Shown here: positions 39,755 to 44,380 of the stretch, piece after piece
Layout: every line of letters starts with the position of its first letter
Numbering within the stretch: position 1 is the first letter of the stretch
Origin: Bacteroidetes bacterium SB0662_bin_6
GTDB taxonomy: Bacteria > Bacteroidota > Rhodothermia > Rhodothermales > VXPQ01
DNA: 64,000 bases
Direction of reading: 5' to 3'
NCBI GenBank assembly: GCA_009839485.1
Contig: VXPQ01000046.1
Location: 1-64,000 of the forward strand
Made by a program: the position numbers and the translations under genes
The notes under the pieces: model-generated
Told to the model about the DNA's origin: nothing
Seen by the model: the letters and a program-made list of their open reading frames with translations, nothing else
Database searches by the model: none

Positions 39755-40666
39755 ATGGATGTTATACCTGTTATAACCGGTCCTACTTCAGTGGGCAAGA
39801 CAGAGTTATGCATAAATCTTTCAGTATTACTTGAATCGGAAATCATTTCTGCGGACAGCCGGCAGCTATACCGGGAGCTTACCATCGGGGTTGCCAAGCC
39901 CGACAAGGATATACTGGAGCGAATCCCGCATCATTTCATCAACGAGCGGTCCCTTGAAGAGCCCTTTTCGGCGGGTATGTTTATGTCCGAAGCGCTCGAC
40001 CGTATTGCAGAGATTCTCGACCGGGGCCGGATCCCCCTCGTTACGGGCGGCTCCACCTTGTATCTGCGAGCCCTCCGGTACGGCCTTGCCAATATCCCCG
40101 ACATCCCTCCTTCGGTACGCGCGCATATCCGGAGGCGCCTCGACCAGGAAGGCCCGGAGGCGATGTATGAGGTCTTGCGGCAGGTCGATCCACGCGCCGC
40201 TGCTACCATGGACGCCACCAAAACGCAGCGTCTTGCCCGCGCCCTCGAGGTATACGAGGCGACCGGCATCCCTCTCAGCCGGTTTCACGAGACGCAGGCG
40301 CCTCCTCCCTATGCGTTCCGTACGGTCGTTTTACAGCGAAATCGAGAGGAACTCTATGCCCGCATCGAGCGCCGAGTGGACGAGATGCTGGTTACCGGTC
40401 TTGTCGACGAAGTACGCGGCCTCCTCGAGGCAGGATACGATCCCGGACTCAATCCGCTGCGCACGATCGGCTACCAGGAGCCTATCGCTTTTCTGAAGGG
40501 GGAAATCACGGAAGACGAAATGGTGCGTTTGATCAAGCAAAACACGCGCCGCTACGCAAAACGGCAGGAAACATGGTTTCGGGGCGACCCCGAGGCGATT
40601 TTCGTGGATGCGGCCCAGGATGCGCAGGCGCTTCTGGCTGCGGTACGGGAGGCGCTGGGCCTCTGA
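39755..40666 (+). CDS. miaA: tRNA dimethylallyltransferase
   Basis: 303 aa. MiaA transfers a dimethylallyl group to N6 of A37 in tRNAs reading UNN codons. The P-loop is near the start (ITGPTSVGKTELCI), followed by the substrate-binding SADSRQLYRELTIGVAKP and VTGGSTLYLRAL; TKTQRLARALEVYEATG and KQNTRRYAKRQETWFR are further family motifs. Length matches MiaA. It lies 139 bp after the recombinase gene. Confidence 0.95.
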   Translation: MDVIPVITGPTSVGKTELCINLSVLLESEIISADSRQLYRELTIGVAKPDKDILERIPHHFINERSLEEPFSAGMFMSEALDRIAEILDRGRIPLVTGGSTLYLRALRYGLANIPDIPPSVRAHIRRRLDQEGPEAMYEVLRQVDPRAAATMDATKTQRLARALEVYEATGIPLSRFHETQAPPPYAFRTVVLQRNREELYARIERRVDEMLVTGLVDEVRGLLEAGYDPGLNPLRTIGYQEPIAFLKGEITEDEMVRLIKQNTRRYAKRQETWFRGDPEAIFVDAAQDAQALLAAVREALGL

Positions 40667-41144
40667 GGCAACTATGCTCGTCTTATCCGGTCTCGCCCGC
40701 TCACTTTTGATTGAAACGGCGCCTCTCTCGTTCGATTCGTAAGACGTAATCTGTGTTACAGGGCGTGTAGAGCGCCTGAGAGCGTCCCCGTCACTATACA
40801 GCACCCCGGGATACGTCGCCCGAAGCGAAGCTCCCTTGGCAACCCCGACCGCCCCGGTACGCCTTTCTTCCTTGTAACTAACGAGGGTGCGTCGGGCTGT
40901 CTGGCGCGCTCTACCGCCCTTCGTCACACTGCGCCTCCTGGGACACTCCACCTGAATCAAGCCTTGGTATACCGGCCTGTATACCAGCATTCCCGGGCAG
41001 GTATACCCGGCGGTATACCGCGAACGGATTCGTGGTATACCGATTAGTATACCAGGGGAACTGTAAGTAGACCGATCAGTATACTTACAAAGCCTATAAG
41101 TAGACCGACCGGTCTACTCTCGAGGGATCCAAGGGGAAATTGGG
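40667..41144. other. Intergenic region; left 300 bp without visible features
   Basis: Between miaA and the TetR gene. From 40667 to about 40960 I see no gene, repeat or clear terminator. From 40966 the operator array begins and runs nearly to the TetR start. Confidence 0.5.
40966..41118. promoter_or_regulatory. Array of five 20-bp TetR-type operator palindromes
   Basis: Five paired half-sites, each pair 12 bp centre to centre: 40966-40985 (GGTATACC, TGTATACC), 41000-41019 (GGTATACC twice), 41034-41053 (GGTATACC, AGTATACC), 41066-41085 (AGTAGACC, AGTATACT), 41099-41118 (AGTAGACC, GGTCTACT). Pair starts are 34, 34, 32 and 33 bp apart. The last pair contains TAGACC-N4-GGTCTA, the box reported for the TetR-family regulator NemR. 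It ends 26 bp before the TetR ATG, so autoregulation is likely. Confidence 0.8.
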
Positions 41145-41930
41145 ATGAAACGATCTCAAATGGACAATATGATAGTCGATGCGCAAGGAGAACAACTGCG
41201 TGCGGATATTCTGAACGCGGCGGCGACACTGTTCGGAGAATACGGGTACAGGGCGGTCGGCGTGGATGCGATTGCCGGGGAAGCAGAGGTGGCGAAGCGA
41301 ACGCTGTACCGGTATTTCACGTCCAAAGACGAGCTGGTGCTCGAATACCTCGGGATAGAAGCAGCCCATATCCTGACATGGCTTGAGAAGAGCACGGAAA
41401 ATGCGAGAACCCCGCTGGAGAAATTAAAGGCCTTCTTTTTTGCACTCGCTGAACGAACCGGCTCGCCCCATTGCCGGGGATGTCCTTTTCAGATGGCCCT
41501 GGGCGAATATCCTGACAAGGATCATGCGATAAACAGGCTGGCCCGCAGGCATAAGGAGGCGATACGGACCGAACTGGAGAAGTGGTGTACTGCGGCGGGC
41601 TTCCGGGATATTGTCGGAACCGCACATCGCCTGTATTTGCTTATGGAAGGCGCCTGGGCGTATGCCCGTTTGCACGGAGCATCCCCTGTACAGGTCCCTG
41701 TCGAGCACAGGGTCGCGGCGCTGAATCATGCGGTCATTCTTCTGCTCAGCGGCGGCCTCTATGCGGAAACGCTGATCGCCACAGCAAGGCCCGGCGCACG
41801 CTATCGTTCTTATCGGCCGGAGGACGCTGAAGAAGAGCCGGTCGAACCCGAGACCCTTTCCTTGTTTGGGAGCGCTCCTCCGCTTTCAGGCGCTGATTTC
41901 TCCCCCCCTTCCACTACAAAAAGCGATTGA
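41145..41930 (+). CDS. TetR/AcrR-family transcriptional regulator
   Basis: 261 aa. The N-terminal helix-turn-helix is clear (ADILNAAATLFGEYGYRAVGV and VAKRTLYRYFTSKDELV, ~20-66). The ligand domain contains the pair C110 and C113 in SPHCRGCPFQMALGEYP, placed like the redox-reactive Cys of NemR, so electrophile or oxidant sensing is plausible but inferred. The tail after ~225 is low-complexity. ATG 41145 has AAGGGGAAATTGGG upstream. The gene overlaps the convergent glycosyltransferase-methyltransferase gene by 121 bp at their 3' ends. Its likely targets include its own upstream operator array; no efflux or reductase gene is adjacent. Confidence 0.88.
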   Translation: MKRSQMDNMIVDAQGEQLRADILNAAATLFGEYGYRAVGVDAIAGEAEVAKRTLYRYFTSKDELVLEYLGIEAAHILTWLEKSTENARTPLEKLKAFFFALAERTGSPHCRGCPFQMALGEYPDKDHAINRLARRHKEAIRTELEKWCTAAGFRDIVGTAHRLYLLMEGAWAYARLHGASPVQVPVEHRVAALNHAVILLLSGGLYAETLIATARPGARYRSYRPEDAEEEPVEPETLSLFGSAPPLSGADFSPPSTTKSD

Positions 41931-43909
41931 CGGTCCACGCATCGCCGGGTACGCTGCGCATGGACTACGTGCGCGCCGGCCTCCTGGAAACAGGCCAGCC
42001 ATTCGGCGTGTGTCCGGAAACGCAGCGGTCCCTCCTGCATAGGCGCGGCCTTTTCCGAGCGCAGACGGTTCGCCAGGCGATCCAGCCTGTGAAGCAGCGC
42101 CAACTCCCATTTCCACACATAGGTCGACTCGAGGATTACTGTGCGGCGGCTGACACGCAGCGTTTCACGGAGCAGTTCGTCCGCATGTCCGGCGTGATGC
42201 AGGACGAAAACCAGCAGGGAAGCATCAAAGGCTCCGGAAGCGTAGGGCAGGCGTCTCCCTTCGTACACGTCCAGTGGAAGCGAGGTCCTGTTTTGATTGA
42301 GGATATCCACCAGTTGTATTTGTCCGCCAAGGCGTTTGCCTAATTTTTCTCCCACATAACCCTCCCCTGCCCCCACATCGAGCACCGACTGCCCCTTCTC
42401 CAGAAAACGCGCCATGAGGGCTGCTTTTCGGGCGGCGCGAGCCCGCAGCAAGAGGTCTGTGAGGGCGCGGCGATAGCGGCAGGCGGCCAGGACGGACCAT
42501 CCCCCCCACCCTGTCCAGACCCATATCCAGTAGGGTCCGCCGGTATAGAGCAGATAGGTGCCGAGCGCGCACACCGAAAGCCAGTACCAATGCCAGGAGG
42601 GCCGTTCCGCCGGAGCTGCAAGTACCAGCACGCCAAGCAGGTACCAGGGATGTACGGTGGTGGCGAATACGAGGAAACCGCCTGCCGCCCAGACAAACAG
42701 GGGCCGCAGGCCCCGGTTCTCCTGCAGGAAGTATCGCCGGGTCAGCCATGTTTGACAGCCGGTTCCGGCTGATCGGGGCCATGTTTGCCAGCCGTTTCCG
42801 GTTGAGTTGGGCCGTGTTTGCCAGCCGGTTCCGGCTGATCGGGGCCATGTTTTCCAGCCGTTTCCGGCTGATTTGGCCCATGTTTTCGAGTTGGCGCCAG
42901 CCGATTTCGGACGCTGTGCGTACAGCATCGCCAGTCCGGCAAGATATAGCGCAGCCAGGGCCGGACCGAGCAGCTTGCTCAGATCCATTCCGGTCAGCAG
43001 GGCCAGGAAATGCTTTATGCCGTAGTACAGGCCGGCATTGAATTCGAAAAGGCGCACATAGAGATTCAGCGACGAAAGTATTTTTCCTATCCCCTCCGGA
43101 TGAAAGAAGGGCAGTGCGGGAAGAAACGCTATCCCAAGGCCCGCAGCGATGCTTTTCCAGCCGAAGCGGCGCCAAAGAAAGGGAAACAAAAGAAACGGGT
43201 AGAGTTTGACGCCGCCGGCGCAGGCCAGCCAGACGGAAGCCCATACCCCCCGCTTGTTCTTCAGCGCGAACAGCATAAGCGCCAGAAACAGCACCATGGC
43301 CGCTTCGCCGTGCCCCTGACCGGCTCCGGCAAGCACGACCGCCGGATTCCATGCGTACAGCAATAACTGCCGGGGGCGGAGCATTCGGCTCAGTACAAGG
43401 ACTGCTCCGAATTCGAAGAGCGCCAGGAGCCCTTTGATGACGAACCAGGATACTTCCCAGCCCCGGTCGTAGAAAACGGCCCCGATCCGGAAAATGAGCT
43501 GGGATACCGGGGGATATACCGTGTAGACGCCGGGCGAATTGAGTTCGTCGTATACGGGCTCCTCGCGCAGCGCCTCCAGTTCCGGGCTGTCGGGCGTATG
43601 CAGATAGGGGTTATATCCCTCCGCCTGCACGAGACCGTCCCACACGTACCGGTAGGCGTCGTCGGAAAGGCCCGGCGGCAGCCAGAATACGGCCAGCCGC
43701 AAGACGAGCGCAAAGACGATCACGAGGTGCATCGGCACATCCCCCCGTTTCCAGAGCAATGCGCAGATTGCGCCCGCGGCAAGTGCAGCCACGACGAATC
43801 CCCCGCGGGTTCCCGGGGCGGCGGCCCACCATGCCATGCCGCCCATAGCCGCGGCAAGCAGCAGGAGAAGGAGCCAGGTGAGGCCTGAGGGCTTAGGGTC
43901 TGTTAGCAC
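41810..43909 (-). CDS. Polytopic glycosyltransferase (GT-C type) fused to a SAM-dependent methyltransferase
   Basis: About 699 aa from GTG 43909, preferred because AGGG lies 8 bp upstream; the frame also has an ATG at 43930. Residues ~10-470 hold ten or more membrane helices, an early DDAYRYVWDG (acidic loop as in GT-C mannosyltransferases) and the YNPYLHTPDSPELE loop, which suggest a lipid-phosphate-sugar-using enzyme of the MptA/GT87-like kind. Residues ~500-665 form a class I methyltransferase with SVLDVGAGEGYVGEKLG (SAM motif I) and LLVFVLHHAGHADELLRE. A Trp-rich 11-residue repeat (five units) lies between helices (~340-395). The two activities in one chain are unusual. Confidence 0.8.
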   Translation of the reverse strand: MLTDPKPSGLTWLLLLLLAAAMGGMAWWAAAPGTRGGFVVAALAAGAICALLWKRGDVPMHLVIVFALVLRLAVFWLPPGLSDDAYRYVWDGLVQAEGYNPYLHTPDSPELEALREEPVYDELNSPGVYTVYPPVSQLIFRIGAVFYDRGWEVSWFVIKGLLALFEFGAVLVLSRMLRPRQLLLYAWNPAVVLAGAGQGHGEAAMVLFLALMLFALKNKRGVWASVWLACAGGVKLYPFLLFPFLWRRFGWKSIAAGLGIAFLPALPFFHPEGIGKILSSLNLYVRLFEFNAGLYYGIKHFLALLTGMDLSKLLGPALAALYLAGLAMLYAQRPKSAGANSKTWAKSAGNGWKTWPRSAGTGWQTRPNSTGNGWQTWPRSAGTGCQTWLTRRYFLQENRGLRPLFVWAAGGFLVFATTVHPWYLLGVLVLAAPAERPSWHWYWLSVCALGTYLLYTGGPYWIWVWTGWGGWSVLAACRYRRALTDLLLRARAARKAALMARFLEKGQSVLDVGAGEGYVGEKLGKRLGGQIQLVDILNQNRTSLPLDVYEGRRLPYASGAFDASLLVFVLHHAGHADELLRETLRVSRRTVILESTYVWKWELALLHRLDRLANRLRSEKAAPMQEGPLRFRTHAEWLACFQEAGAHVVHAQRTRRCVDRQSLFVVEGGEKSAPESGGALPNKERVSGSTGSSSASSGR
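42748..42912 (-). repeat. Five tandem 33-bp repeats (in-frame minisatellite)
   Basis: Units start at 42748, 42781, 42814, 42847 and 42880, exactly 33 bp apart, each beginning CCATG or CCGTG on the + strand. The first four contain AGCCG(G/T)TTCCGG(C/T)T, which in its full form AGCCGG-TT-CCGGCT is a perfect palindrome. On the minus strand they encode 11-residue units such as GWQTWPRSAGT. The last unit is more diverged. Confidence 0.92.
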
Positions 43910-43917
43910 TATACAGG
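43893..43917 (-). repeat. Dispersed intergenic repeat, partial copy
   Basis: TTAGGGTCTGTTAGCACTATACAGG matches the end of the dispersed 53-bp element (compare TTAGGGCCTGTTAATACTATGCAG at 37913). The palindromic GC-rich half is missing. It overlaps the 5' end of the glycosyltransferase fusion and supplies its probable GTG start. Confidence 0.7.
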
Positions 43918-43919
43918 CC

Positions 43920-44342
43920 CTAGCCGGCATGGAAGATCAAGCGCACCTTCCTGCCGTCGTTCTCGAACAGGACCTCGTCGGCCATGGATTGCATGAAGAG
44001 CAGGCCGCGGCCTCCCTCCTGCAGGAGGTTTTCGCAGGCCCGCGGATCGGCAGACGTGGTGGGATTAAAACCTTCTCCCTCATCCTCTACAGCGACTTCG
44101 ATGCGCTGATCCACCGCTTCCATTCGGAAATGGACCTGCTTCGCCGCATCGAACCGGTTTCCGTGCTCGATCGCATTGGTAACGGCCTCCACGGTCAAAA
44201 GAACGATATTATAGGCAAGCTCTTCATCGCGCACGCGTTCCTGGAGAAAGGCTTCCGTTTCGGAGACAATCCGTTCGATGCTCTCCCGGTCGCTGGTGAG
44301 CACCCGTTCCATTACTCCTGGATTCAACGGCTTGTCATGCAT
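43920..44342 (-). CDS. RsbW-like anti-sigma factor / serine kinase (HATPase_c_2)
   Basis: 140 aa. The GHKL ATPase fold is complete: N-box LTVEAVTNAIEHGNRFD (Glu and Asn), G1 box VEDEGEGFNP and G2 box EGGRGLLFMQSMAD. Such proteins bind a sigma factor or phosphorylate an anti-anti-sigma (STAS) partner in the partner-switching stress pathway. No STAS protein or sigma factor lies nearby, so its partner is elsewhere. It is 38 bp downstream of the glycosyltransferase 4 gene on the same strand and likely in one transcript. Confidence 0.9.
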   Translation of the reverse strand: MHDKPLNPGVMERVLTSDRESIERIVSETEAFLQERVRDEELAYNIVLLTVEAVTNAIEHGNRFDAAKQVHFRMEAVDQRIEVAVEDEGEGFNPTTSADPRACENLLQEGGRGLLFMQSMADEVLFENDGRKVRLIFHAG

Positions 44343-44380
44343 GGGATACTCTGATTAAGTCCACGAAGCTCAGAGGCTGT

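Follow-up and report, generated by a model that had tools for sequence, protein, structure and literature searches.

TetR-family genes usually have one or two operators. The stretch of 64,000 nucleotides analyzed here (the window) carries five operator-like dyads in a row in front of a single gene of this family. This raises the questions of whether the repeated layout is more than a local accident, which protein reads it, and what a five-fold array could do for its gene.

The array and the gene behind it

The array spans positions 40966-41118 and consists of 20-bp dyads with the consensus RGTAKACYnnnnRGTMTACY. From the distal end, these are site 1 (40966-40985, GGTATACCggccTGTATACC), which is found in 6/6 genomes of the genus, site 2 (41000-41019, GGTATACCcggcGGTATACC), site 3 (41034-41053, GGTATACCgattAGTATACC), site 4 (41066-41085, AGTAGACCgatcAGTATACT), which combines one G-type with one T-type half in each of the six genomes, and the gene-proximal site 5 (41099-41118, AGTAGACCgaccGGTCTACT), which is G-type. 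The dyad starts lie 34, 34, 32, and 33 bp apart, with spacers of 14, 14, 12, and 13 bp and a distance of 133 bp between the first and the last site start, and the two half-sites of each pair start 12 bp apart. Direct reading of the sequence bears out the five half-site pairs of the initial annotation in position, half-site offset, and repeat interval. Such an array is far beyond chance. With up to two mismatches allowed, 0.25 hits of the consensus pattern are expected in the window and 13 strand-hits are observed, of which the array supplies 10, and all of 100 dinucleotide shuffles stay below 13; mononucleotide shuffling of the intergenic region gives 0 sites in 3000 trials against the 5 observed.

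The array sits 3' of the end of miaA (39755..40666, + strand), which is its upstream neighbor and does not lie downstream of it, and directly upstream of the gene at 41145..41930 (+ strand). From this position, the latter is the only adjacent gene that the array could control from upstream. A sigma-70 scan found no usable promoter, its sole match being weak and inside the gene. The neighboring genes encode a xer-type recombinase, MiaA, a glycosyltransferase/methyltransferase, a small ATPase-like protein, and a glycosyltransferase; no motor or cytomotive gene was recognized among them. The glycosyltransferase/methyltransferase gene (- strand) converges on the regulator gene, and the 3' ends of the two overlap by 121 bp (41810-41930). 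Its 706-residue frame (41810-43930) appears to be a fusion of a GT87-like membrane part with a C-terminal methyltransferase, and a repeated SAGTGWQTWPRS-like segment lies between the two parts. Genomes of the genus also carry a dispersed repeat that is about 40-63 bp long and palindromic at its ends (GGATACTCTGAT...ATCAGAGTATCC), of which the window holds a copy at 44344-44379 and of which each of the four genus genomes searched has at least 40 matches. This repeat is REP- or MITE-like in appearance and is unrelated to the array.

The assignment of the downstream gene to the TetR family stands, as residues 22-67 of its product match Pfam TetR_N (PF00440) above the cut-off (E = 1.3e-17). The match of the C-terminal domain to TetR_C_13 is weak and falls below the cut-off (20.9 vs 27 bits), and an AlphaFold model made from two sequences has a pLDDT of 41, too low for use. 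Translation probably starts at ATG 41169 rather than at ATG 41145, because the former is the sole ATG position common to the four closest orthologues. In five of the six orthologues, the otherwise diverged acidic C-terminal tail (encoded at 41830-41930) contains a TLSLF motif, which we take to resemble a sliding-clamp binding motif. In genome G004, the tail is ended by a stop codon beside an apparent fragment of the dispersed palindromic repeat.

The protein had been compared with NemR, a cysteine-based electrophile sensor, with regard to a box in the last dyad and to two cysteines. Both features are present. Site 5 contains TAGACC-N4-GGTCTA, which resembles what we presume to be the NemR box, and the cysteines are at positions 110 and 113, counting from ATG 41145, within an invariant CRGCPF motif (residues 110-115), both being present in all six orthologues. 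Membership of the NemR group itself found no backing: the literature searches brought up no paper that gives TAGACC as a NemR box, the 19 NCBIfam TetR models that match the protein all do so far below their cut-offs and include none for NemR, there is no NemR entry among the 60 solved-structure matches listed, and no detoxification or reductase gene of the nemA/gloA type adjoins tetR. Among the matches listed, the closest solved relatives are 3g7r (E = 9.5e-20) and 3jsj (E = 6.6e-13), both uncharacterized TetR regulators. The former shares an RGC...F motif and an EYPD segment with the protein studied here, although overall identity to both structures is weak and the residue of 3g7r that aligns with Cys110 is not a cysteine. 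The RGC motif containing Cys113 is not peculiar to redox sensors, since it also occurs in 3g7r, and at least one of the two cysteines may be structural.

Conservation of the array within the genus

Our conservation sample comprises six genomes of the genus, including that of the window, which fall into two clades. All six contain the TetR orthologue, the other five proteins being 74-94% identical to that of the window, and all six have exactly five sites upstream of tetR over a span of 133-134 bp. The intervals are 34/34/32/33 in three genomes, 34/33/32/34 in one, and 34/33/33/34 in two, such that any single interval varies by at most 1 bp among the six loci within an overall range of 32-34 bp. 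In G004, site 1 (GGCATACCagtcTGTATACC) departs from the pattern twice and site 2 once. The distance from the array to the conserved portion of TetR is greater by about 130-195 bp in two genomes. The order miaA-array-tetR is found in five genomes, with the examined stretch of the sixth not covering miaA, and the convergent glycosyltransferase/methyltransferase gene stands beside tetR in all six.

Between the clades, sites of the same order are 0.74-0.81 identical, whereas the spacers, with an identity of 0.40-0.46, are at the background level of shuffled spacers (0.41-0.51). It is therefore the sequence of the sites and the length of the spacers that are kept, and not the sequence of the spacers, and the combination of five sites, fixed spacing, and drifted spacers suggests that the arrangement of the repeats is important in its own right. 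All five pairs are thus retained in related genomes, which is the opposite of a locus where only the gene-proximal pair is kept and the rest is random. With six genomes from one genus, the number and order of the sites could in part reflect common descent and not continuous selection; the divergence of the spacers argues against this. The order of the sites also seems to be kept between the clades (agreement of site identities is 58/80, a value reached by 8/120 reorderings of the sites), which is suggestive, and shared ancestry may contribute to it.

The grade from GTATAC to GTAGAC/GTCTAC towards the gene proposed in the initial annotation is genus-wide, as a trend: across the six genomes, sites 1 to 5 have 10, 10, 5, 6, and 1 T-type halves out of 12, and in almost every genome sites 1 and 2 are T-type and site 5 is G-type. 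The variable T/G position changes independently in the two halves, leaving position 5/16 unpaired in 14 of 26 distinct dyads, and covariation between half-sites in these 26 dyads is not clearly above the shuffle control. Independent variation fits a symmetric dimer that tolerates either base at this position and reads each half separately, and the lack of clear covariation favors dyads bound by protein over RNA hairpins.

Both the TetR orthologue and the tandem array are limited to the same 6 of the 114 genomes of the order, and both are absent from the other 108. No TetR orthologue outside the genus came up in a profile search that covered a sample of 394 genomes from across the phylum.

Candidate single sites elsewhere in the genomes

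A covariance model trained on the array sites only was applied to all six genomes. Outside the arrays it yields a few strong matches in each, at about five loci, most with E values of about 1e-4 to 1e-2 per genome; about half of a genome's good sites are in the array. Several of the dispersed matches occupy equivalent positions in more than one genome. In all six, a multihaem cytochrome c gene and a sulfatase gene (Pfam assignments) flank twin sites, with weaker E values of about 0.003-0.3; a site that lies between a second sulfatase gene and a putative PhoD-like gene, which is identified by its sequence and whose partial product has no Pfam match, occurs in four; an aroK-truA site in three; a site at the gene for a DUF4381 (Bat-like) protein in five; and a site in the coding sequence of gpmI also in five, weakly in the genome of the window. 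The cytochrome/sulfatase sites are T-type, whereas the gpmI, truA, PhoD, and DUF4381 sites are G-type. In the two single-contig genomes, the few dispersed sites are scattered relative to dnaA.

Several of these sites lie inside coding sequence and not at promoters. One of them is in gpmI, where a near-perfect palindrome is located about 150 nt past the start codon (loci L062-L066). It is written with the codons AGA (4/5 genomes; 3.5% of Arg codons) and CTA (5/5; 1.7% of Leu codons) and encodes an Arg-Pro pair, these residues being specific to the genus; none of the aligned gpmI genes from related genera has this combination of rare codons and Arg-Pro. Taken together, the dispersed sites fit a small candidate regulon of the TetR protein, and some of the matches in coding sequence may be incidental.

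Function of the array

We consider it probable that the array is a cooperative autoregulatory operator region of the downstream TetR gene, and that the protein would also bind a few dispersed sites. That the dyads belong to this gene is supported by the preservation of their number, spacing, and sequence at 6/6 loci and by the perfect co-occurrence of array and gene in 114 genomes. From these patterns we infer binding by the TetR protein, cooperativity, repression rather than activation, and an effector ligand. Five dimers would bind, one per 20-bp dyad, with adjacent dimers assisting each other through the fixed 32-34 bp repeat, and the protein would thereby shut off its own promoter steeply, at a point set by the amount of free repressor. 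If it also binds the few single and mostly more symmetric chromosomal sites, the array would in addition hold a large share of the repressor. The geometry of the DNA complicates the cooperative part. The regular period had been expected to place the sites on nearly one face, but at 10.5 bp per turn the angles from site 1 to sites 2-5 are 86, 171, 189, and 240 degrees, the span of 133 bp corresponding to 12.67 turns. The resulting rotation of 17-86 degrees between neighboring sites does not favor a flat cooperative stack, and a one-face arrangement, unsupported at 10.5 bp per turn, becomes nearly possible only at about 11 bp per turn. The failure of the sigma-70 scan to locate a promoter and the greater distance between array and protein in two genomes also speak against this reading.

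Several other explanations deserve consideration. In one that we regard as rather unlikely, the proximal site alone controls the promoter and the distal four act mainly as a sink for repressor, which would set a threshold that must be exceeded before the dispersed targets respond. The array does account for about half of each genome's good sites, the T-type sites 1 and 2 and the G-type site 5 are compatible with different affinities, and a sink needs copies of the site and tolerates some drift in sequence; however, a pure sink needs neither intervals fixed to 1 bp nor a constant total of 133-134 bp, and a sink is in any case compatible with cooperative autoregulation. The contrast between the T-type cytochrome/sulfatase locus and the G-type sites elsewhere could instead reflect two regulators preferring GTATAC and GTAGAC, or some other protein, with tetR being a mere target. 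Such an arrangement seems improbable given that array and TetR orthologue have the same phylogenetic distribution, that mixed dyads such as site 4 in 6/6 genomes are more simply read by one tolerant dimer, and that TetR-family repressors commonly bind promoter-overlapping palindromes, including their own (PMC6790063; AltR, PMC13178969).

By analogy with RefZ and SlmA, the array might also be a platform that works like a centromere or anchors the nucleoid, in which case the dispersed sites within genes could serve as additional anchors. Plasmid partition loci typically have regular arrays in front of the gene for a DNA-binding protein, and several dispersed sites do lie within coding sequence, one of them with rare codons. 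Nevertheless, a chromosome-organizing role of this kind would be quite surprising for a protein confined to one genus, with no motor protein gene beside its own and only about five dispersed loci per genome, scattered relative to dnaA where two single-contig genomes allow a view. Finally, the repeats could be transcribed RNA hairpins, each unit being able to fold into a stem of 8 bp and a loop of 4 nt, or copies of a mobile palindromic element, of which the genus does carry an unrelated example. We reject both and give them a very low probability: the stem positions lack covariation clearly above shuffles and are often unpaired at position 5/16, and the tandem array occurs solely at tetR and nowhere else in the 114 genomes.

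Among known systems, RefZ and SlmA belong to the TetR family and bind chromosomal palindromes at a limited number of places, and we know of no five-fold array at their own genes. The RefZ model matches the protein studied here weakly and below the cut-off, as do many other TetR models; RefZ itself is from Bacillus subtilis (PMC6657595). Multi-site control by a TetR-family regulator is also seen for AmtR of Corynebacterium glutamicum, where an amtB promoter fragment contains three sites and cooperative binding has been raised (PMC2723105). However, the three sites of AmtR are at a target gene and not, like the five here, at the regulator's own gene, and the operator sequence differs; amtR has a single upstream site that deviates from the core motif and is not autoregulated (PMC2723105). 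AltR, an autorepressing TetR protein with a critical cysteine, binds a palindrome in its own promoter (PMC13178969). Regulators of the NemR/AltR type have one main inverted repeat at their own promoter, in contrast to the five dyads found here. No published five-site TetR array matching this one was found in a search that reached few subscription journals.

A more far-reaching possibility, which we judge doubtful, is that the protein is mainly a genus-specific architectural regulator, rather than a ligand-responsive repressor, that nucleates on the array and exerts its effect at single intragenic sites, for example in gpmI. If this were true, a glycolytic enzyme and the sulfatase/cytochrome genes would be coupled to repressor dose, and the host would have kept rare codons and changed residues in gpmI for the sake of binding. 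Under the preferred reading as an autoregulatory operator region, the locus would provide a natural five-operator array with fixed number and spacing and drifted spacers, and hence a comparative system for studying autoregulation with regard to its steepness, noise, and titration. The dispersed sites, among them one retained within a metabolic gene despite the rare codons it requires, would make up a small and testable candidate regulon.
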